Source of the DNA: Gammaproteobacteria bacterium | GTDB lineage: Bacteria > Pseudomonadota > Gammaproteobacteria > Burkholderiales > Gallionellaceae | DNA: 64,000 nucleotides | Reading direction: 5' to 3' | NCBI GenBank assembly: GCA_018814405.1 | Contig: JAHIZO010000007.1 | Location: forward strand, 1-64,000 | Shown here: positions 3,648 to 40,021 of the stretch, one piece after another | Layout of the letters: each line of letters starts with the position of its first letter | Position numbering within the stretch: the first letter of the stretch is position 1 | Position numbers and translations under genes: made by a program | Notes under the pieces: model-generated | Seen by the model: the letters and a program-made list of their open reading frames with translations, nothing else | Database searches by the model: none | Told to the model about the DNA's origin: nothing

Positions 3648-5321
3648 TCACAGCCCGAACACGACCTTGGCCGAGATGGCGATCTGGTAGATGATCTGTG
3701 TCATATCTTTCCAAATCTGACGTGACTTCACATCCACTTTGGGCAGTACCAGAATATCGTCGCCCGCTCGCACTGTGCCACTGTCCTGCTGGAAGCTACC
3801 GTCACGGTGCGCGAGGATGATGCGCGAGTTATCAGCATTCTGGGTATACCCACCTGCGCGCTCCACGTAGTCATCCAAGTCAAGCTCCGAATCGAAAGCG
3901 ATGGCATTCGGGAAGAGTACTTCTCCGCTGACCAACACTAGGCCATCCTTGACGGGTATTTTGATGATGTCGCCATTTTCCAGCAGCAGCGTGTCGCGGT
4001 TCTCGGCTTGCGCAATCTGGACTTGTCCGCTGGGCACGATCTTTTTCGCTCTGTCGATCCATTGCAGGATCATGTCGGCTTCGTCTTTGCGCAATCTTGC
4101 TTCATCGCTCGTGCCGCTGCGTGCTGTCAGCACTGTAGATTCCAGACTGCGCAACGATGTCTCCAGCAGCGAACTTTGACGATCACGCACGCTGACGCGG
4201 AGCAATTGGATGCTCGATTCATCCGACTGTTCAGTCAGCTGAATTCGTTTCATCAACTCGCCCAAGCGCGCACCGTATGGCAGCACATATTCCTGCGGAC
4301 TTTTGTGCTCACCTTCGACGCGCACGGTGATCGTGCCTGTCTTTTTGTCAGAGGTGAATTCAGCCTCATCTCCATTCGAGACATACACGTCACCTGCTTT
4401 TTCCAGCGGGTAATATTCGACGTTACGCGTCGTTCCGCTATTGCGTACGATCCGCACATGTGTCGTCTGTGCCAGTGGTTTTGCCAGCCCCATGAGCTCT
4501 TTGAGAGCCAGTGCCGATGCCTTGAACTCGAAAAGTTTGGCATTTTCTGCTTGCCCGCTGACCCTGACTGTATTGCGGCGCTGGGTTACGAAGATGACAT
4601 CTCCGTCACTTAGTTGCAGGAGCGGAATACGGCCAGCCAACAGAAAGTCATACAGATTTAGCGTTCCGCGTGTTTGCTCTCCCCGTTTGACCTGGATGTC
4701 GAGAAAGCTTCCACGCTCGAGGTCGATGCCCCCCGCCTGATCCAGATAGTGCAGTACACTATCCATGCTGGTACCGTTATACAACCCCGGACGCCTGACG
4801 TTTCCTCCCACGAACACCCTTACCGGCTGGGCTGCTGCGAGATTCGCATAGCTGTTCACATTTGACCGAAACACTTTGCTCGCAGCCAGTTCCACCGCAC
4901 GCTGCAGTTCGGCGTTCCGCACCCCCATCACTTGAACGGGACCAACTTGTGGCAGGAACAGGTTTCCTTGCGGATCGACTGTAAGCACGCTGTCAAAGTT
5001 GAAACCGCCCCACAATCGGACTTGTATCTTGTCTCCTGCGGCAATCAGATAATCGGGATTGAATTGTGTCGCACCATACTGTGCGAAACTGCCTGTAAAC
5101 AGCTGAGCTCCGAATACATCGCTATTGGTGTTCGAGGCATATCCACTGGGTGGCGGCATCACAGCCGGAGGCGGAACAGCAGGCGCGGCCGCAACAGGCG
5201 TGGAGATGGTGGTTGATGGCGTCAATCCAAGCGCGCCTTGGACGCCCAGCGGATCCGCATAATCCAAGGCTGCCGCCGGTGCAGCAATCAATATCGTTAG
5301 TAGCGCGACCAGAATTCGCAT
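3648..5321 (-). CDS. kpsD: Periplasmic/outer-membrane polysaccharide export protein, KpsD-like
   Basis: 557 aa, matching E. coli KpsD in length. A cleavable signal peptide (about residues 1-18, ending APAAA-L) precedes a Poly_export domain with LIAAGDKIQVRLWGG at about residues 92-106. Several SLBB-type beta-grasp segments follow, for example VFVGGNVRRPGLY and VLVSGEVLFPNAI. There is no lipobox, unlike Wza. It is the exit channel component for ABC-dependent (group 2/3) capsule export, with KpsE, KpsM and KpsT encoded just upstream. Confidence 0.9.
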   Translation of the reverse strand: MRILVALLTILIAAPAAALDYADPLGVQGALGLTPSTTISTPVAAAPAVPPPAVMPPPSGYASNTNSDVFGAQLFTGSFAQYGATQFNPDYLIAAGDKIQVRLWGGFNFDSVLTVDPQGNLFLPQVGPVQVMGVRNAELQRAVELAASKVFRSNVNSYANLAAAQPVRVFVGGNVRRPGLYNGTSMDSVLHYLDQAGGIDLERGSFLDIQVKRGEQTRGTLNLYDFLLAGRIPLLQLSDGDVIFVTQRRNTVRVSGQAENAKLFEFKASALALKELMGLAKPLAQTTHVRIVRNSGTTRNVEYYPLEKAGDVYVSNGDEAEFTSDKKTGTITVRVEGEHKSPQEYVLPYGARLGELMKRIQLTEQSDESSIQLLRVSVRDRQSSLLETSLRSLESTVLTARSGTSDEARLRKDEADMILQWIDRAKKIVPSGQVQIAQAENRDTLLLENGDIIKIPVKDGLVLVSGEVLFPNAIAFDSELDLDDYVERAGGYTQNADNSRIILAHRDGSFQQDSGTVRAGDDILVLPKVDVKSRQIWKDMTQIIYQIAISAKVVFGL

Positions 5322-5324
5322 GGT

Positions 5325-6488
5325 TCAGTCCTTGTGATCTCGGATGATGGCTGCCAGCAGATGCGTGATCCCTGCCAGCAGCAGCGTGAATAATATGAAC
5401 ACTGTGATGTTGTACAGCCTGCGCGGTTCAAGCGGATACTGCGGCATTGATGGCTTCTGCAACAGCGTCGCTTTCTTCAATGTACGCGATGCTTCTATTC
5501 TCCCCTGCTCCAGCGCGACCAAAGCAGTTTTGTAGATATCCTGCGCGAACTCCGCATCCATCTGCAGGCGTTGATATTCTTCTACCGTGCTGTTCAGCAT
5601 CTTGCCGCCCGGAGCGATGAGCCGCGCCTGTTCTTGTTCGATCTGCTTTTCGACAGCCGCAATCTGCTGTTCTGCTTCGATCACGCTCGGACTATTGGGC
5701 ATCAAGTACGCAAGCATAGCCGCTCTGCGTGTACGCATGTCTGCCAACTGCCCTTCCAGCCGGTTGATGATGCCTACCAGATTCTCGGCAGCATTCTGCG
5801 GTGAGGCCATCCCCTTGCTGTTCTGAAAATTCAGCAGCGCTTGGCGCGCCAGATTTGCGCGCTTGCCCATCTCGTCAACTTGCTTCTCAAGAAATGCGAC
5901 CTGGTCCTGTGCTAGGCTGTGAGCCATCTCGTTCATGTGGCGCTCACCCTCTGCCACCATTGCAGTTGTGATCGCATGCGCCATTTGTTCATCATAGGCT
6001 TGCGCCCTGATCACCAATAGGCCTGCGTAATCATCAAACTCCACACTGGCTCGGGTCAGGTAATAGTTGTGGAATTGCTCTATCGGGGCATCTTTGAACC
6101 ACATGCGCGACAGCGGATCACGCTTCCAGTCGCTGAAGTGCGACCGAAGGTCAAGCTGTGCATCCAGCGTTTTAAGCATATCGACCGAGAGCAAATGATC
6201 CCGTAGCAGCAGTTGATCAGCCCGGTTGATACTCGCACCACCCAGCAGACTTGCAAAATCAGCAGTCTGCCCACCCGACAGATCTGTTTTCTGCACGATG
6301 ACGTGTGCTTCTGACACAAAGCGGTCCGATGCAATGATTCCCCAGTAGATTATCGCGAGAATCGAGGCGGCCAATGCCATCCCGATCACTCTTCTGCGTT
6401 GCAGTGTGGGAAATAACTGCTCTTGCAACCATATGCGGCCCATCAACGCCAACTCTGCGGCTTTCTGCTGCATGTTATTTGTTTTCAT
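5325..6488 (-). CDS. kpsE: Capsule export inner-membrane adaptor, KpsE/CtrB-like
   Basis: 387 aa from the ATG at 6488; an in-frame ATG at 6509 would add seven residues. A transmembrane helix near the N-terminus (about residues 35-53) is followed by a long coiled-coil periplasmic region. A second helix near the C-terminus (ITVFILFTLLLAGITHLLA) has a PQYPLEPRR proline-rich lead, typical of the polysaccharide co-polymerase family. It bridges the KpsMT transporter to KpsD. The gene overlaps the 3' end of kpsT by 14 bp and ends 3 bp before kpsD. Confidence 0.9.
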   Translation of the reverse strand: MKTNNMQQKAAELALMGRIWLQEQLFPTLQRRRVIGMALAASILAIIYWGIIASDRFVSEAHVIVQKTDLSGGQTADFASLLGGASINRADQLLLRDHLLSVDMLKTLDAQLDLRSHFSDWKRDPLSRMWFKDAPIEQFHNYYLTRASVEFDDYAGLLVIRAQAYDEQMAHAITTAMVAEGERHMNEMAHSLAQDQVAFLEKQVDEMGKRANLARQALLNFQNSKGMASPQNAAENLVGIINRLEGQLADMRTRRAAMLAYLMPNSPSVIEAEQQIAAVEKQIEQEQARLIAPGGKMLNSTVEEYQRLQMDAEFAQDIYKTALVALEQGRIEASRTLKKATLLQKPSMPQYPLEPRRLYNITVFILFTLLLAGITHLLAAIIRDHKD

Positions 6489-30535: not shown

Positions 30536-32517
<1,982 letters not shown>

Positions 32518-32521
32518 CGAA

Positions 32522-32552
32522 TTTGCAGGGACAGATAGTCCGCCCCTGCAAT
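32522..32552. terminator. Hairpin between convergent thiC and restriction gene
   Basis: TTGCAGGG (32523-32530) pairs with CCCTGCAA (32544-32551) around a 13-nt loop, in the 36-bp gap between two convergent stops. It could stop transcription from both sides, but neither strand has a U-tract. It also marks the left edge of the inserted island. Confidence 0.45.
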
Positions 32553-32553
32553 T

Positions 32554-33867
32554 CTAAGCGACTCGATAGCTTGGCCTTTTTGAAGAAATTTCGTCGTCGA
32601 AAAATTCACGGAAGGTGATGACGTTAGTCTTGTCTTTGTAGCAAGTTTCCTTAGACTTCTTCAGGGACTCCGGGACGACCAAATGGATTCCATGGCTACT
32701 CATGTCATCAATTGCGTCGGAAGAAACACGATCATCGACTGTTGCCAAGAACAACTCGCATTTGAATTTTTCCATAGTCACTTGCTTCCATCGCTCCCGT
32801 AGTGTGGTTTTTGCCGAGAGCACCATTGCGTCCTCAAAAGCCCTGTCTTGAGCATTCAACACAACCAAGCTTGGCAACACAAAATCTGGGCGGCGCCCAC
32901 CCGTTACGGCTTGCTCTTCAAAGGCAATTCGACCATCGCGCAATAGTCTTGCGATGTGCTGCTCAAACGAGCGCCCTGCACGCGATTTCCGGTGTTGGCT
33001 TGCGCTCAGAAAGGTAGCATCCAAATCAGGAAAACCGCGCACGACGGAAGAAACAATATCCTCTCCACCGCCCGTAATGATGCGAATGACCTCAGCAGCG
33101 CGGTAACGCCGTTCCGCGCGCTTGTAGAGCGAATACTCAATGTCTCTACTAATCTTCATAATTGCATCGCCGGGCGCTTCCATTTCATACGGGCTTAATC
33201 CGTCGAGATCGTTTTGCTGGAGAAATACATTTTGTGCCTCTGCTGCCAATATTTCAGGTGCCGGCATCTTAGAAACAGATGCAATGAAGGTTGCCAGTGA
33301 CCCCGTTTTGAGCGCGAAACTCAATTCTTCAATCAGCTGTTCCGTCTCATCTTGCTGAATTCTCAATGCATCAGCTGGATTGAATAGTCCATAGTGAAAA
33401 TCTGCGCCAAGATCAAACATGGCTTCGATTAACTCCACCTCCTCCATGGCCGAGTCCACAACCATAAACCAGTGGGAGACATCATCGATTGGTTCTCGCA
33501 GGCTGCCGCCTATCAATAATGATGCCGGAGTAAGCCCAGAGAACTCGTCTTTGGGCACTCCAGTAAAGTGCATCTCTGGCCCCTTGTTTGAGTAGTGCTT
33601 CAAATTTGAAGTCTTAATTTCCCCCGTTGCAGGCCACAGTGTTTCAAGCTGCGCCTCAAAAATATGCGGCTTCTGGGTGTTTACATTCTTCAGCTGAGGA
33701 AAGAAATTCGATTCTCGTATTGGGCGAGGGATATAGACGCCATTCTGGTGTCCATGTTCCGGTCCCTCAGCCCAGCCGCAGTCATTCCGGGAAAGCTTCT
33801 TTACAAATAGCTGACCACTTTTCCCGATCCACTCTTGAATATCACTCCATTGATTAGAAACAGTCAT
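32554..33867 (-). CDS. Type II restriction endonuclease, EcoRII family
   Basis: 437 aa from the ATG at 33867. The N-terminal EcoRII-N effector domain is recognisable (FVKKLSRNDCG, HGHQNGVYIP). The C-terminal nuclease domain has HRKSRAGRSFEQHIARLL (292-309), the PD-(D/E)xK elements GGRRPDFVLPS (Asp328) and SAKTTLRERWKQ (Lys353), then HGIHLVVPESLKK. These match EcoRII closely in order and spacing. Cleavage at CCWGG is inferred from the family and from the Dcm-like methylase in the same operon. The start overlaps the ancestral vsr stop (ATGA). Confidence 0.9.
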   Translation of the reverse strand: MTVSNQWSDIQEWIGKSGQLFVKKLSRNDCGWAEGPEHGHQNGVYIPRPIRESNFFPQLKNVNTQKPHIFEAQLETLWPATGEIKTSNLKHYSNKGPEMHFTGVPKDEFSGLTPASLLIGGSLREPIDDVSHWFMVVDSAMEEVELIEAMFDLGADFHYGLFNPADALRIQQDETEQLIEELSFALKTGSLATFIASVSKMPAPEILAAEAQNVFLQQNDLDGLSPYEMEAPGDAIMKISRDIEYSLYKRAERRYRAAEVIRIITGGGEDIVSSVVRGFPDLDATFLSASQHRKSRAGRSFEQHIARLLRDGRIAFEEQAVTGGRRPDFVLPSLVVLNAQDRAFEDAMVLSAKTTLRERWKQVTMEKFKCELFLATVDDRVSSDAIDDMSSHGIHLVVPESLKKSKETCYKDKTNVITFREFFDDEISSKRPSYRVA

Positions 33868-34282
33868 CGATTGCCCTCGGTAATTTCCGTATAAAGTAAA
33901 TCTAGGCGCGTCAGTACATCTCGCAACTCGCATTCCCACACTACAAATACACGCCAACCAAGGCCCTTCAATGCGGCTATTTGGTATGCGTCCCTAGCTA
34001 TATTTCTGAAAGCTTATTTGTCCAAAATTCCTTCCGACTACTTGGAGTAGTCGCATACTTGCAGCCCGCATGCTGATGCCAAAAACATCCATGTACAAAT
34101 ACTACGGCCCCATATTTTGGTAAAACCAAATCCGGCTTCCCAGGCAACTCTTTTGCATGAAGCTTATAGCGAATACCGCGCTTATGCAGATACCTTCTAA
34201 CCTGCAACTCTGGCTTGGTATGTTTACCTTGAATTCCAGACATCATCCGACTACGAGTTTCTCGGTCGACAATATCAGCCAT
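33864..34282 (-). pseudogene. vsr: vsr, very-short-patch-repair endonuclease, frameshifted
   Basis: The ATG at 34282 opens a frame with strong Vsr motifs: RSRMMSGIQGKHTKPEL, the catalytic Asp51 in PGKPDLVLP, and VHGCFWHQH (Cys66, His69, His71). It stops at 33998-34000 after only 94 residues, where family members have about 135-150. The next frame then reads ARDAYQIAALKGLGWRVFVVWECEL and ends at 33864. This is the missing Vsr C-terminus including the last zinc-ligand Cys. Restoring one A in the run at 34003-34005 rejoins the halves. The gene is either inactivated or carries a sequencing error. Confidence 0.88.
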
Positions 34283-34299
34283 CAGCTGCAGCTCGTTTC

Positions 34300-34497
34300 T
34301 TAGTGAAGTTGACTCGAATCTTCAGCGCTACAAATTTCCAAATCCTGGATGTTGTATCTATACGTAGGATTTAACCGCATGCCTACGAGAGTTTGAACCA
34401 GCACACGCTCGCCATCTCCTTCTAGAACAACCATGCGCAATTCTTCATCACCCGCGTCAATGACCTTTTTGAATTTGACTACATCGCCTCTATTCAT
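34300..34497 (-). CDS. Small protein of unknown function within the R-M operon
   Basis: 65 aa, MNRGDVVKFKKVIDAGDEELR at the start, acidic C-terminus. It lies 11 bp after the methylase stop and 17 bp before vsr, and the ATG follows an AGGAGG-like SD (AAGGAGGTAGTC). There is no helix-turn-helix, so it does not look like a restriction controller (C) protein. The N-terminus resembles a short SH3-like beta-barrel segment. I do not recognise the family. Operon placement suggests an accessory role in the restriction-modification system. Confidence 0.65.
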   Translation of the reverse strand: MNRGDVVKFKKVIDAGDEELRMVVLEGDGERVLVQTLVGMRLNPTYRYNIQDLEICSAEDSSQLH

Positions 34498-34508
34498 GAC
34501 TACCTCCT

Positions 34509-35786
34509 TTATGCAGTTGCGTATTGAAGGGGAAGCTCAGGCTCCAAAGTTTCTGCTTCCAACATCGGTTGCATCAACCTTGCAACATGAGCCATGACAT
34601 CAACAACAACAGAGTTTCCGAATTGCTTGTATGCCCGCGTATCCGACACTGGAATCCTGAAAGTATCCGGGAATCCCATTAGCCTTGCACATTCACGAGG
34701 CGTAAGACGACGTGGGTTCTTGTTCTTGCCCTGATAGACAAGGATTTCCGAGCCATCTTTGTAGTAACGCGCCGAAAGAGTCCGCGAAATGTTTTCAGGT
34801 GTAACCAGACCGAAGCCGAAGCCATTTCCCTTTGCGCGGTGCTTCTCTGCATAGTTCTGCAAATAGAGCCAAAGATTGTCCGTCAAGGTGTATTTATCCG
34901 GCACACGCTTCTTCTTGTGGTCAAAGAATCTGCCCTCATCCCACTCCAATACGGGTTCTGTGCCATCGGTGCGATGCAGAATTTCTTTCAGCTTGATCTC
35001 GCCTTTTGGGTGCAACGGAAGCGCATCGAAGTCGAAAGCGACTGGCTCGCGGAATCCAACGATTATGATGCGCTCGCGATGCTGGGGGGTGAAGTGCGCT
35101 CCGTCGATGACACGGTAATGTATGTGATACCCAAGCTCTTTCGTCAGGGTGCGGCGGATAACGTCGAAAGTGCGTCCCTTGTCATGCGAGATAAGATTCT
35201 TGACGTTCTCTAGCATGAAGGCGCGCGGGCGCTTTGTATCAATAATGCGCGCCACGTCAAAGAACAGGGTTCCCTGTGTTTCGCATGCAAACCCATGTGC
35301 CTTACCTAGTGCATTTTTCTTGGAAACACCTGCTATGGAAAACGGCTGACAAGGGAATCCTGCCAACAGCACGTCATGATCAGGAATTGTCGCTGCATCC
35401 ACCTGCGTGATATCACCCGCAATGAGGTGACCGTCGCGGTAGTTCTCGGCGTAGGTCTTTTGCGCGTAGCTATCCCATTCGCTGGTGAACACACAGCGCC
35501 CGCCTATACCTTCGAATGCCTTGCGAATGCCACCGATGCCTGCGAATAGATCGATAAAGTCGAAGCTCCCAGCCGCGCCTTCCGGCTCCGTAAATGGTAG
35601 AAGCTGCTGCAATGCATGAGCTACATATGCTGGCGGTTTCGTCTGCCGCGCTTCCCAGCGGCTGATGGTGCGAACTCCAACCCCAAGATGCTTGGCAATA
35701 ACGGCTTGAGTGTTATGTTTGCGGGCTTCTGCAAGATAGTTAAGCACGGCATCTTGATCACCTACTAGTGCGATTACTGAATTCAT
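34509..35786 (-). CDS. dcm: DNA (cytosine-5) methyltransferase, Dcm/M.EcoRII-like
   Basis: 425 aa from the ATG at 35786 (SD AGGAGA); the longer frame reads through the promoter. An N-terminal HTH (about residues 26-46: [20 protein letters not shown]) is typical of Dcm and M.EcoRII, which regulate their own genes. C5-methylase motifs follow: [12 protein letters not shown] (81-91), [13 protein letters not shown] (catalytic Cys146), VI ENVKNL (193-198), [15 protein letters not shown], and [11 protein letters not shown]. With the EcoRII-like nuclease it forms a restriction-modification pair, probably for CCWGG. Confidence 0.95.
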
Positions 35787-35816
35787 GAACGTTCGTTCTC
35801 CTGGGAATTTTTGTGG

Positions 35817-35845
35817 ACAGTATGACATTGTTATGACCCAGTCAA
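35817..35845 (-). promoter_or_regulatory. Promoter of the R-M operon
   Basis: Minus-strand TTGACT (35840-35845), a 17-bp spacer and TACTGT (35817-35822). The spacer and -10 contain a direct repeat of GTCATA (two copies 11 bp apart), a possible binding site for the methylase's own HTH. The transcript would start about 20 bp before the methylase ATG. Confidence 0.6.
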
Positions 35846-36003
35846 GCAGGTCAGCCTTAGCCATATCAGGCGCACTTGCCTTTAACCGCGAGGCAAGCTG
35901 ACTTATTCATTCATCCTTGCATGAAATACAGACGGCGTAGTGCTGACGCAGTCGCCTATTTCATTGATTTATCTTGATAAATAAACCGCGGTGTTGGCTG
36001 TAC

Positions 36004-36047
36004 ATTGTATGTATATCTTGTATATATAAATACTATGCGCATACAAT
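36004..36047. promoter_or_regulatory. Inverted repeat in the control region of the GHKL cassette
   Basis: ATTGTATG (36004-36011) and CATACAAT (36040-36047) form a perfect 8-bp dyad 28 bp apart. It lies in the AT-rich region upstream of the small gene at 36085 and downstream of nothing else on this strand. The 35787-36084 gap between the two divergent arms of the island holds only this and the R-M promoter. Confidence 0.45.
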
Positions 36048-36084
36048 GCGCCGTATACGTATATTATTAATACTGGAGATGCAA

Positions 36085-36330
36085 ATGAGCAGCGCAGCAA
36101 TTAACGAGAAGAGAGATGCCAGAGCCAAGTTTGTTGAGTTAGCAAACAAGCGTGTTACAAAGGCAATCAAAGACATAAGACTGGTTGGGAATTTATCTAA
36201 TCGGCGGGCATATAAGTATGAAGATACGGATGCCAAAAAAATCATCCGCGCATTACAGAGTGAGTTGGACGTATTGAAAGCACGGTTTCGGGGCGATGCT
36301 GGTGATGATGATTCAATATTTTCCCTATAG
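36085..36330 (+). CDS. Small basic protein, first gene of the GHKL-ATPase cassette
   Basis: 81 aa from the ATG at 36085, which has GGAG 6 bp upstream; a frame from 35974 reads through the regulatory region and is rejected. It is highly charged and helical (KFVELANKRVTKAIKDIRLV, then NLSNRRAYKYEDTDAKKII and LDVLKARF). I do not recognise a named family. It ends 8 bp before the ATPase gene, so it is very likely part of the same operon. Confidence 0.75.
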   Translation: MSSAAINEKRDARAKFVELANKRVTKAIKDIRLVGNLSNRRAYKYEDTDAKKIIRALQSELDVLKARFRGDAGDDDSIFSL

Positions 36331-36338
36331 GGGGTTTG

Positions 36339-38267
36339 ATGAAAGCTAGTTGGATTTTTCCGGAGACGGGGCCTTACCAGGTGCAGGGCAGGGATTTGTC
36401 GGAAGATAATTTCGCACCCGAGGGTCGCACCAATTTGGAAATTTTGATTCGCGAGGTTCTTCAGAACCCGCTGGATGCGCGAGATGCGGGAAATAGCGGG
36501 CCTGTGAAAGTACAAATCAGCGTACTGAAACCGGGCGAGTTTGATCACGGTTACCTTGTGGAACTGCTTAACGGTGAATTTGGTAAACGCCTTGAAGCCT
36601 CCGGTGGCGCCAAGCTGCCCGAAATGTCTACCGCAACGGTGCTTGTATTGGAAGACTTTGGTACGACCGGTCTTAATGGATCGTGGAATGATCAGAATGC
36701 CGACGGATCGAACGAAAATTGGAATGCATTCTGGTTCAGAGAAGGGGAAGGGGCGAAATCGCTTTCAGGCAGCAATGGGCGTGCTGGGCAGGGAAAGATT
36801 ACCTACTACCGAATCAGTGCGGCCCGTGCTGTTTTTGGTTACACAATCCGCAATTCCGACGGTCAATCCCTGCTGATGGGGAGAAGCGCCTTTCGGAAGG
36901 TATATCCGTTCAACGGCTCGAAATATCTAAAACATTCTTTTTGGTGTACTGGGCAGGGACAGGCTTTGCCAGTTCTTGATGAAGGCGAGATCCTAGCATT
37001 CAGGCAGGCATTTGGATTGGAACGAAAGGATGAGCACGGTCTCAGTTTGGTCATTCCGATGCCGATCGACTTCGAGCCCAAAGCCGCAATACAGACAATC
37101 ATTACCGAGTTCTACTATCCGATCGCCTGCGGGAACCTTGAGGTTCGCATCGGCGGGATGGATATCGGCCGGTCGAATGTCGATTCTGTCGCGGATCACG
37201 TATTGCCCGATGACAGGGCTCGCGAAATCAGATCCGCGTTTACCAAGGGCTTTAGAAAGCTGATTGGAGGAACGATTGGGGAAGAAAGGAACGGAGTAAC
37301 TCCGGTCGAGTTAAAACCCGGCTGGGACAAGGCGTCCGCGATTAGGGAGGAGTTCTTTCCCGAAGGGATGCTGGGAATGCTGCGTGGTGCAATTGAGAAA
37401 GGGGATTCAATTTCCGTCAGGTGCCCAGTTACCGTGCGCCCTAAAATCGGCCAGCCGGTTCAGACGTGGTTTGATGTTCATCTGCAGATTCCCGAAGATC
37501 TGGATCGTGTTGAAGAAGCGTACATACGGCGGGATCTGTTGATCGGCTCGGAAACACACCTTGCTTCGAGCGCGCACCTACAGAAAGCGCGCGGTCTGAC
37601 CCTGATCAAAGATGCTGCATTGTCTGCCTTTCTGGCCGACGCCGAAGAGCCGACTCATTTGAAATGGAACGGCAGCCGCCCTCGTCTGGCGGAAGACTAC
37701 TTGAATCCGCAGGCAACTCTGCGCGCAGTCAGAAATGCGGCCCCCCGTCTGCTGTCGGTTATTTCCAACGGTTTGGTAAAGATGGATGTGAAGGCACTCG
37801 CGAAGTACTTCACTAAGCCTGCCGAGGAAGGAAAGAAACATGCATCCGGCGGTGATAAGAAGGGCGGAAAGGAAACCAAAGAAATCATTGTATTTCCCGC
37901 GCCGGTTCGCAGGCCGTTCCGGATTGTGACGGGGAAAGACAGGGTTCATGTATTGCCGAACGGCACCGCGGCACCAAAGACGGGAGATTTGCCGATGTCG
38001 TGTGTGCTTGAGCTTGCCTACGAGGGGCTTGATCAAGATCCATTCAAAGCTTACGACCCGTTCGATTTCAATCTGACCGACGAAAAAAATCATGCAGTGA
38101 TTGTAGCCGGGGCCAATGTTACGGAGCGACTAAACAACCGGATACATTTCGAAGTTGTTAACCCGGATTTCTCGGTCGAAGTGCAGGGATTCGACCAAAA
38201 CATCCGCCTGAGGGCAAGGCTGAACTTTACGGAGAAGAATGATGGGACGACTATCGGCGAAGAGTAA
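36339..38267 (+). CDS. GHKL (MutL/Hsp90-type) ATPase of an unassigned cassette
   Basis: 642 aa from the ATG at 36339 (SD GGGGG); a TTG one codon upstream is less likely. The N-terminal Bergerat-fold motifs are in order: N-box REVLQNPLDA (Glu39, Asn43, Asp46), G1 LEDFGTTGLNG (Asp106, Gly108, Gly111) and G2 SGSNGRAGQGKIT (144-155). The region to ~350 could be an S5-like transducer. The C-terminal part (~480 on) has a Lys-rich linker (EEGKKHASGGDKKGGKETKE) and a beta-rich end. It is not a standard MutL, GyrB, Hsp90 or histidine kinase. Co-transcription with three unknown genes beside an R-M operon suggests phage defence; this is inference. Confidence 0.85.
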   Translation: MKASWIFPETGPYQVQGRDLSEDNFAPEGRTNLEILIREVLQNPLDARDAGNSGPVKVQISVLKPGEFDHGYLVELLNGEFGKRLEASGGAKLPEMSTATVLVLEDFGTTGLNGSWNDQNADGSNENWNAFWFREGEGAKSLSGSNGRAGQGKITYYRISAARAVFGYTIRNSDGQSLLMGRSAFRKVYPFNGSKYLKHSFWCTGQGQALPVLDEGEILAFRQAFGLERKDEHGLSLVIPMPIDFEPKAAIQTIITEFYYPIACGNLEVRIGGMDIGRSNVDSVADHVLPDDRAREIRSAFTKGFRKLIGGTIGEERNGVTPVELKPGWDKASAIREEFFPEGMLGMLRGAIEKGDSISVRCPVTVRPKIGQPVQTWFDVHLQIPEDLDRVEEAYIRRDLLIGSETHLASSAHLQKARGLTLIKDAALSAFLADAEEPTHLKWNGSRPRLAEDYLNPQATLRAVRNAAPRLLSVISNGLVKMDVKALAKYFTKPAEEGKKHASGGDKKGGKETKEIIVFPAPVRRPFRIVTGKDRVHVLPNGTAAPKTGDLPMSCVLELAYEGLDQDPFKAYDPFDFNLTDEKNHAVIVAGANVTERLNNRIHFEVVNPDFSVEVQGFDQNIRLRARLNFTEKNDGTTIGEE

Positions 38268-38994
38268 TCCGACGGGCCTGAAAGAGCTTGACCGTGGCCG
38301 TGTCTCAATATCTGTTTCGGAAATAGCCGGCCGGCGGAGCTTTGTGCTGGACCGGCTTGATCTAAAAAACACAGGGCTTTCGGATACTCTGCTGGCTGTC
38401 ATTGTGGCTAGGGCGGGCAATACCAGCCTGCGTTGCGAAATGGGAGCCGTTTCAAACATCACACCCTCAAGCCATTCCCTTGACAAGCTGGACCGTTCGC
38501 AGCCTTTGCGGTTCAGGGCTCTGCTGCGAGCACCCGACAGTCCGGTACTGGTGGCATCCATAGAGAATATAAGCACGCGCGATGATTCACAGAGCGAAAG
38601 CCTGTTGCCGATGGAGCCCGCGGATCTCGGCGAGCGACTCTGGAAACTGGTGATAAACGATGATGGGCCGGTGCTCCAGTTTAATTCGAGAGTTTTTCCA
38701 AGTGCCGCGGGCGCGGAGAACTACAAACCCTTCGGGGCGATGGTTCTGCCCGAGGCGTTGCGCCAGGTGATGGAAAAGATTGCAGAGGATCCCGGCTGTC
38801 TAGATGACGAAGGCAATTCCTGGTACGCGTGGTCGGAGTGGCTGCATGCAATCGGCGCGGAACGACCATCGGCAGACGGGGATGAAGAAGAACTGGCCTT
38901 ATGGTGCGATCAGGTCGTAGACCGTTTCTGCGGGAAATTTAGTTTTGCCACACAGCTCAATGCCAATTTGCTTGAGGGGGCGGGCAATGACTAA
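38239..38994 (+). CDS. Unknown protein, GHKL cassette gene 3
   Basis: 251 aa. The ATG at 38239 (a second is at 38242) has GGAGAAGA upstream and overlaps the ATPase gene by 29 bp, so translation is coupled. The N-terminal ~110 residues look beta-rich (SISVSEIAGRRSFVLDRLDL). The C-terminal half is acidic, with a Trp-rich segment (NSWYAWSEWLHAIG). No signal peptide, membrane helix or catalytic motif is seen and I do not recognise the family. Confidence 0.8.
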   Translation: MMGRLSAKSNPTGLKELDRGRVSISVSEIAGRRSFVLDRLDLKNTGLSDTLLAVIVARAGNTSLRCEMGAVSNITPSSHSLDKLDRSQPLRFRALLRAPDSPVLVASIENISTRDDSQSESLLPMEPADLGERLWKLVINDDGPVLQFNSRVFPSAAGAENYKPFGAMVLPEALRQVMEKIAEDPGCLDDEGNSWYAWSEWLHAIGAERPSADGDEEELALWCDQVVDRFCGKFSFATQLNANLLEGAGND

Positions 38995-39730
38995 CGCGAG
39001 AAAACTAAATGCCGACGGCATTGCCGTATTTGCCAAATGGCTTGAAAACCCTGTTGGTGATGTGCCGCCGCGGGAATTGCTGGGCAGCGATTCCACGTCT
39101 GAAGAATATGGTACTTATGAAATCGACCCGGCCCGCGAGTTTGAAACACGGCTTGAGTTTGGGAAATATCTGAATGAACAGTTTTCGGCAGCCGATTTTA
39201 ACGAAATGACTTCACCCGACAGCGACGGCTTGTGGGCATGGCTGGCAGTGGTCTATTTCAGGCAACTTGCGAAAAGCAAAATCCGCCGCAGTGAACACTA
39301 CGTTGTGGTGCGGAAGGGTTCCGCCGGCTCGCTGGCCTATCGTCATGCAGTAAGAACGCCCTACGAACTGGTTCACATTCACGGTGAAAGTGCGCTGATC
39401 TGCCTGAAGAGTCCGATGAGTATTATGGGTGATATGACTGAGCAACTGGCCTCGCGCCAAACAATCGCGCACAACCGCGGATTCTTTCAGACCGCATATG
39501 AGCTTTACGTTAAGGACGGAAAACTTAAGCGTGGTGCTTCATCCAAACCGAAGAAGCCCAAAGATAGAAAAGCCGGGGATAGAACGGGGTTCGGAAGTGC
39601 TAGACGGTTGGCGGTTGCGCTGCAGCGCCTGGATCTGACTTATGACACCGAGAAAATGGCTGCCGAACAAATGAGACTGGTACTGCCAAAAGAATTCGCA
39701 AAGTGGGACTCAGACAGTAAACCCGCGTAG
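38987..39730 (+). CDS. Unknown protein, GHKL cassette gene 4
   Basis: 247 aa from the ATG at 38987, overlapping the previous gene by 8 bp (SD GGGGGCGGG). Notable segments are SDGLWAWLAVVYFRQLAK, a basic patch IRRSEHYVVVRK, then GSLAYRHAVRTPYELVH. A Lys-rich linker (SSKPKKPKDRKAGDR) precedes a C-terminal helical region ending LVLPKEFAKW. It is probably DNA- or protein-binding. No recognised catalytic motif. It is the last gene of the cassette, and the core-genome gene at 39761 follows after 30 bp. Confidence 0.8.
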   Translation: MTNARKLNADGIAVFAKWLENPVGDVPPRELLGSDSTSEEYGTYEIDPAREFETRLEFGKYLNEQFSAADFNEMTSPDSDGLWAWLAVVYFRQLAKSKIRRSEHYVVVRKGSAGSLAYRHAVRTPYELVHIHGESALICLKSPMSIMGDMTEQLASRQTIAHNRGFFQTAYELYVKDGKLKRGASSKPKKPKDRKAGDRTGFGSARRLAVALQRLDLTYDTEKMAAEQMRLVLPKEFAKWDSDSKPA

Positions 39731-39760
39731 ATAGTGCGAGCATAGTTATACTCGCGCCCC

Positions 39761-40021
39761 ATGAACTGCCGCCCCTCCTGCGCCGCCTGCTGCATCGCAC
39801 CCTCCATCACCTCGCCCCTGCCCGGCATGCCGAACGGCAAACCTGCCGGGGTGCCGTGTGTGCAGCTGGATGAGAATCTGGGTTGCAAGGTGTTTGGCAA
39901 GCCGGAACGCCCGGCTTTTTGCGGCGGGTTGCAGCCTTCGGCGGAGATGTGTGGCGAGTCGCGCGAGGATGCGCTGGTTTGGCTGGCGCATTTGGAGCAG
40001 GCGACTTGCCCGCGGGTATAA
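39761..40021 (+). CDS. YkgJ-family Cys-cluster protein
   Basis: 86 aa with eight cysteines, including the CAACC N-terminal motif, GCKVF, FCGGL and MCGE, as in the YkgJ family of putative metal (Zn/Fe) binding proteins. Function is unproven. It sits 9 bp upstream of the DUF1289 gene. Confidence 0.85.

Follow-up and report, generated by a model that had tools for sequence, protein, structure and literature searches.

The question raised by this 64,000-nucleotide stretch of contig JAHIZO010000007.1 (hereafter the window) is whether four consecutive plus-strand genes, lying next to a restriction-modification (R-M) operon, constitute a previously undescribed defence system, as was proposed in a first-pass annotation of the same DNA. 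All four open reading frames (ORFs) of that proposal are present: gene A (36085-36330), encoding a basic protein of 81 aa; gene B (36339-38267), encoding a GHKL ATPase of 642 aa, recognised by its motifs and by a match to the PADLOC model PDC-M33A; gene C (38239-38994), encoding a partner of 251 aa with a predicted beta sandwich followed by helices; and gene D (38987-39730), encoding a mostly helical partner of 247 aa, the folds of C and D being those of AlphaFold2 models. A and B are separated by 8 bp, and the B/C and C/D pairs overlap by 29 and 8 bp, a spacing from which co-transcription of A to D seems likely. The reading that we favour, with a probability of roughly 45%, is that A-B-C-D forms a mobile module of the defence type, namely a divergent GHKL cassette of the PDC-M33 kind that is often coupled to cytosine-5 methylation and that would work as a DNA clamp and restriction arm.

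That these genes belong together as a system is borne out by their distribution, since B-C-D is kept as a unit across phyla and a reciprocal search with D leads back to B and C. A scan of the contigs of 84,980 species confirmed 225 stretches, the best 80 of which by B were kept as the named loci referred to below (L011, L013 and L014, being duplicates, were left out of the counts, and L094 was left out of the reference lists and kept among the 80); because these loci were picked by similarity to B, the figures apply to the B family and not to all GHKL proteins. C was present in 76 of the 79 named loci with room for it. For D the count was 70 of 76, and all six named loci without it fall in a Planctomycetes clade. 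The spacing stayed within ±60 bp at 81 of 83 loci for B-C and at 79 of 80 for C-D. The full B-C-D set was found at 72 of the 80 loci, two of them archaeal and many in metagenome-assembled genomes (MAGs), under 14 phylum labels, some of which are doubtful because L060 and L061 carry an identical B under different phylum labels. When the search was led by D, five of 398 sampled genomes of the phylum were positive, including the window's own, and B and C adjoined D in all four others, B being merely a 112-aa ORF in one of them (L110). A search of the class led by B gave nine of 369 sampled genomes, again including the window's own; seven of the nine had C and D, and the remaining two (L017 and L018) were PDC-M33-like.

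Gene A is an optional component. Relatives of it were found at 18 of the 80 loci, and each of these 18 has a cytosine-5 methyltransferase (C5-MTase) within 9 kb. A is also present in L020 and L109, where no such enzyme was seen, and close to PDC-M33A-like genes in L139 and in L138 (58% identical across 69 columns). Clustering of 3921 neighbouring ORFs, after removal of the shadows of labelled genes, revealed no further constant partner in more than six loci. Searches of mobile elements gave few hits: B had no match in 50,697 phage records, nor had the D protein of L041, and the B-C-D genes of L041 had no DNA match in E. coli; the plasmid search returned one Rhizobium megaplasmid, and B, C and D occur together on two IMG/VR contigs. 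On a contig from a viral collection (L021, 9872-11840), B is divided over two ORFs with C and D whole.

The assignment of B to the GHKL ATPases also holds. Its Bergerat motifs are intact (E39, N43 and D46; D106-F-G-T-T-G111; G147-R-A-G-Q-G-K153), and seven of their residues (E39, N43, D46, G111, G147, G150 and G152) do not vary across an alignment of 85 relatives, so that B probably has ATPase activity. Equally invariant in the 85 sequences, and also in the set of M33A-like proteins described below, is an ExxxH motif (E436, H440). B presumably consists of an N-terminal ATPase domain, an S5-like middle part and an extra C-terminal region; PDB sequence searches with B returned chance-level matches only. 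None of A to D was placed by NCBIfam, and Pfam and PHROGs yielded matches below significance. No significant match was found for A, C or D in Pfam, NCBIfam, PADLOC, PHROGs or PDB sequence searches, in keeping with the first-pass annotation, which could place the 251- and 247-aa partners in no family.

What has to be given up is the claim that the system is undescribed, since B is homologous to PDC-M33A, L017 has the same three-gene layout, and a paper of 2008 already places GHKL proteins in such operons. B matched part of the PDC-M33A model (62.9 bits, E 5.8e-18); by hhalign it matched a seven-row set of M33A-like proteins over 420 columns (E 1.6e-42), and its profile matched the M33A protein of L017 (E 8e-32). 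L017 encodes PDC-M33A, M33B and M33C in this order (458, 184 and 183 bits) beside a methyltransferase, a Vsr endonuclease and EcoRII; its layout, a GHKL protein followed by proteins of about 280 and 245 aa beside C5-MTase and Vsr genes, corresponds in gene order to that of the window cassette. In contrast, C and five of its relatives did not match the M33B model, nor did D and four of its relatives match the M33C model. The M33A-like loci L137-L142 have three genes of similar sizes; L137 and L138 are related to L017 in all three, and in L139-L142 the proteins resembling C and D match neither M33B nor M33C. When the D-like proteins of L139-L142 were aligned jointly, D matched them with an hhalign E of 3.3e-6 (best of 150 single-sequence controls, 0.005), the subsets L139/L140 and L141/L142 giving 1.1e-4 and 0.15, and this joint alignment compared with M33C gave 0.0018, which suggests that D is linked to M33C through intermediates only. 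Because C and D match no PADLOC model, these sequence comparisons lead us to regard the window cassette as a divergent offshoot of the PDC-M33 kind and not as a strict PDC-M33 member, and for the same reason PADLOC would probably not call the A-D set. We found no paper on PDC-M33 under that name, many subscription papers lying outside the search.

GHKL ATPases in comparable settings have been reported under other names. In 2008, a study of MORC and paraMORC ATPases described such GHKL proteins as sharing operons with Dcm, Vsr and EcoRII-like genes, and proposed DNA looping for them (Iyer 2008, PMC2292703); B is like paraMORC in having a GHKL part and a presumed S5-type part near such genes. 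Five families are distinguished there, and B, compared with the text description and not by alignment, shares the GHKL motifs and the ExxxH motif of paraMORC2, which is mainly cyanobacterial and Gram-positive, MORC proper having a GhXhhpXXRhl motif in the S5 domain; however, partners like C and D do not appear in the parts of the 2008 text available to us (PMC2292703). Mza likewise has a GHKL ATPase in a methylase-linked cassette, and the related triads in L141 and L142 adjoin MzaC/MzaD-like genes, but none of the eight scanned window proteins (A-D and the R-M operon) matched an Mza model, and no Z1 helicase, MzaD or AIPR was found among them. VcSduA (paraMORC3, a GHKL-Shedu protein) is a tested anti-phage protein with a GHKL ATPase domain; as far as the available text goes, it differs in having its own C-terminal PD-(D/E)xK nuclease of the DUF4263 family (PMC12137116), for which B had no Pfam or PADLOC match. 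In the HEF_HK/Response_reg_2 cassettes, GHKL proteins are linked to a C5-MTase and Vsr (PMC8011034, seen in part), and a protein with two GHKL-type domains (by Pfam) lies two genes upstream of B in the Bacteroidota locus L079 (6556-8817); those cassettes nevertheless have another domain architecture and other partners, and the eight window proteins gave no such Pfam match.

Besides its partner genes, B is frequently linked to cytosine-5 methylation. At 44 of the 80 loci a C5-MTase is encoded no more than 9 kb from B, and many of the contigs are short; where at least 5 kb to the left and 6 kb to the right of B were available (35 loci), the same distance held a C5-MTase at 27 loci, Vsr at 26 and an EcoRII-like gene at six. 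With a few C5-MTases in a genome of some 3 Mb, chance would give a few per cent at most, a level that is an estimate and not a formal null. The eight PDC-M33-like loci (L017, L018 and L137-L142) had a C5-MTase in seven cases, Vsr in six and gene A in two. Two groups of neighbouring C5-MTases were distinguished by tree and target-recognition region: an S-type, which is Dcm/EcoRII-like, and an L-type, a looser group with a different recognition region, from the main body of which L099 and L100 stand apart in the tree. The 48 MTases of at least 400 aa comprised 16 of S-type (including that of L124, a locus without A-D), 30 of L-type, 22 of which are 502-599 aa long, and two untyped. If a locus carried more than one MTase, typing was done on that closest to B, and the MTases below 400 aa (L016, L021, L037, L071 and L105) as well as those of L019 and L093 were left untyped.

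The type of MTase goes together with the restriction endonuclease (REase). EcoRII or MvaI lies beside the MTase at all 15 S-type loci (11 EcoRII and 4 MvaI, the window and L017 included), and an REase of EcoRII or MvaI type lies beside the L-type MTase at none of 30 loci; this split is a new result. In the B tree, which was built by a quick method and has weak support at 21 of its 85 inner branches, the 44 rows with a type imply at least 11 switches between S and L. The nearest B to that of the window, with 73% identity, is in L028, and because L028 has an L-type MTase with Vsr and the window an S-type MTase with EcoRII, the cassette must have changed partners. Three PDC-M33-like genes, together with A, an L-type MTase and Vsr, are found in L138 (4439-10386), which is from a genome of the window's own genus (G747).

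Other REases at the L-type loci were surveyed by scanning 92 of the 128 listed neighbour proteins, and rarer ones may be missed because the tallies give the top 25 of 94 Pfam families and the top 25 of 82 PADLOC families. Judged by position, the matches of two REase_II models (PDLC03419 and PDLC03485) fall on the genes immediately preceding B in L080 and L104. These genes are taken to be GHKL-type because HATPase_c_3 matched two neighbours; a third REase_II model, PDLC03398, matched three members. The 82 PADLOC models match the 92 neighbours at E <= 1e-5, several per protein, in a comparison run without a control.

How could such a module work? MutL- and MORC-type ATPases undergo ATP-driven dimerisation and close as clamps on DNA, and by analogy with these relatives B may dimerise on ATP and close as a clamp on DNA, while C as a beta-sandwich adaptor and D as a helical subunit would associate with B and determine the target and the action of the clamp. 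The AlphaFold2 model of C has a mean predicted local distance difference test score (pLDDT) of 92 and a predicted TM-score (pTM) of 0.68. Foldseek gave no match for it at E <= 0.001, and the top rows were weak and partial (E 5e-3, query TM-score at most 0.27) and of an Ig/FnIII-like kind, including cytokine-receptor and fibronectin type III (FnIII) domains. The model of D reached a mean pLDDT of 95 and a pTM of 0.91, without a PDB or BFVD structure match at E <= 0.001; its best conserved polar residues are W83, Y174, R207, E236, R119, H120 and W85. Cross comparisons of C with D (25 profile pairs) gave 0.032 as the lowest value. A suspected resemblance of D to DUF6339 was dropped, as no paper was found and D has no Pfam match.

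In the proposed scheme, the module would be the restriction arm, or a second arm, of a self/non-self system based on 5-methylcytosine (m5C), standing in for a restriction enzyme beside an L-type methylase and backing up EcoRII or MvaI beside a Dcm-like methylase, as in the window. The clamp would tell self from foreign DNA by m5C marks and block or destroy the latter through D or a recruited enzyme, with an anti-phage effect as the proposed outcome. At L-type loci, which have the look of methylase systems, B-C-D is the leading candidate for the restriction function. The further proposal, that B-C-D represents a new class of restriction modules that depend on ATP, with a GHKL clamp, a beta-sandwich adaptor and an effector D of new fold, replacing the REase where the methylase is L-type and pluggable beside Dcm/EcoRII-type systems, is a tentative one that we regard as possible, if rather doubtful. 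Loci with a methylase and Vsr and no recognisable restriction enzyme are usually filed as orphan methylases, and if B-C-D is a restriction arm, many of them would become complete defence systems of an untested kind. The module would then also offer a bacterial model for the response of a MORC-type ATPase to cytosine methylation, a link that was proposed for eukaryotic MORC proteins in 2008 (PMC2292703).

Several results weigh against the favoured reading. The relation of the partners to those of PDC-M33 is borderline for C, for which hhalign against M33B gave 0.013 and 0.0036 (best control 0.0052), and not significant for D in direct profile comparison with M33C (0.094 and 0.072). No nuclease fold was recognised in C or D by Foldseek of the predicted structures. 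The absence of an REase at L-type loci was fully tested for EcoRII and MvaI only, and 20 of the 30 loci have at least 5 kb to the left and 6 kb to the right of B. We rejected the possibility that genomes with an S-type locus encode an L-type MTase at another place, as only one of 14 does (the genome of L076, 577 bits; the others at most 51 bits; the genome of L017 was left out). Because the other 13 show none, protection is unlikely to depend on one fixed methylase specificity, unless the two types act on a common site; the C5-MTase model, though built from L-type rows, still matched all 14 S-type genomes, mostly weakly. Finally, 15 genomes were sampled from the 41 B loci that have no MTase close by; 11 of them gave no C5-MTase hit and nine gave neither a C5-MTase nor a Vsr hit, most being draft MAGs, so methylation is not needed in every branch and is a common partner rather than a universal need. 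A crude motif scan for adenine MTases at the 41 loci gave two matches, one of them plausible (L051).

The occurrence of the cassette with either type of MTase would also fit an abortive-infection guard, in which B-C-D watches the methylase, the R-M system or a DNA structure made by the phage and shuts the cell down on failure, the MTase and Vsr then being the watched state and not a means of protection. An AIPR gene adjoining L093 and AbrB/PIN-like ORFs recurring near B in five loci point the same way, and the small, optional A could act as a restraint. However, no toxin-like fold was found in the predicted structures of C and D, and B-C-D is also present in genomes without a C5-MTase hit, and we consider such a guard unlikely, though less so than the other rivals.

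The site of the cassette is variable. Homology with five loci of the same genus stops at the end of thiC (32513-32517) and restarts at 39747-39791, so that about 7.2 kb is variable. Within it, the minus-strand operon that the first-pass annotation described as EcoRII-like, divergent from the cassette and inserted with it between thiC and core genes is present as stated, on the opposite strand. It encodes an EcoRII-like REase (32557-33957; EcoRII-C, E 4.8e-27), a short Vsr mismatch endonuclease of 94 aa (34001-34282; Pfam Vsr, E 5.7e-29), a 65-aa ORF without family (34303-34497), which is 70% identical in L124, and an S-type, Dcm/EcoRII-like C5-MTase with an N-terminal helix-turn-helix (HTH; 34512-35864; Pfam DNA_methylase, E 1.1e-82, and sequence motif); with both an MTase and an REase it belongs to the type II R-M systems. 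At the same site, L124 (genome G770) has an MTase 91% identical to that of the window, the small ORF, a Vsr of 158 aa and an MvaI-type REase, and lacks A-D. As L124 carries a near-identical MTase without A-D, the cassette and the R-M operon are separable, and its content also means that the REase beside these 91%-identical MTases differs between the window genome (EcoRII) and G770 (MvaI). Among 34 genomes of the genus (21 of them at least 90% complete), the cassette is in the window genome only, G747 having a weaker PDC-M33-like match.

These observations bear on a second rival, in which B-C-D acts as a MutL-like helper of Vsr in the repair of T:G mismatches that arise from deamination of 5-methylcytosine at the sites of the methylase. 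MutL stimulates Vsr, Vsr is present at 26 of the 35 roomy loci, and an HhH-GPD glycosylase gene follows the MTase of L043, the family making up three of the 92 neighbours. Against this stand the nine of 15 sampled genomes without a linked MTase that have neither Vsr nor a C5-MTase hit, the presence of Vsr and MTase without A-D in L124, and the variable site of A-D, which together make a Vsr helper distinctly improbable.

The setting of A-D looks like that of a defence system in its variable site, patchy distribution and PADLOC-matching neighbours, as the first-pass annotation had supposed, and a defence role of A-D may be drawn from it. In the remaining rival, B-C-D would be an ATPase complex with a remodelling or regulatory role outside defence that travels with R-M islands. 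Consistent with this are tree clades that have no MTase close by (one of 19 rows, with Nitrospirota, Gamma, Delta and others, and one of 10 rows from Planctomycetes) and the failure to find a further shared partner gene, but the patchy presence (B in 9 of 369 genomes of the class, seven with C and D; D in 5 of 398 of the phylum), the variable insertion site and the frequent MTase/Vsr linkage argue against it, and we hold it to be very improbable.

Some minor observations were made along the way. The thiC-uppP stretch (window 32518-39747) holds different genes in the genus loci L121-L125: in L121 a 267-aa gene whose motif resembles HNH when inspected by eye, a 658-aa ORF in L122, a 283-aa ORF in L123, an R-M operon in L124 and a 1369-aa ORF in L125. 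The window Vsr lacks the C-terminal part when compared with the 158-aa Vsr of L124, and a second C5-MTase-like open frame lies elsewhere in the window genome (G000:C9:194182-195018). In L043, the HhH-GPD glycosylase (5111-5827) comes after an L-type MTase, and no Vsr was found there. AbrB-like (by eye) and roughly 136-aa PIN/VapC-like ORF clusters occur near B in L015, L045, L062, L088 and L100, directly upstream of it in several of the five, PIN accounting for two of the 92 neighbours. The genes just upstream of B in L080 (8039-9892) and L104 (8040-9899), both Bacteroidota, are probably GHKL-type.

In the window itself, the GC content is 52.6% in A-D, 49.1% in the R-M operon and 57.9% in the remainder. 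A sigma-70 scan of 35700-39900 found no promoter-like site, compared with a mean of 3.4 in shuffled sequences. The divergent intergenic region between the MTase and A (35865-36084) has 40% GC and contains an inverted repeat, ATTTATC-TT-GATAAAT (35967-35982), which is a candidate operator because the divergent MTase has an N-terminal HTH, and which might regulate transcription in both directions.

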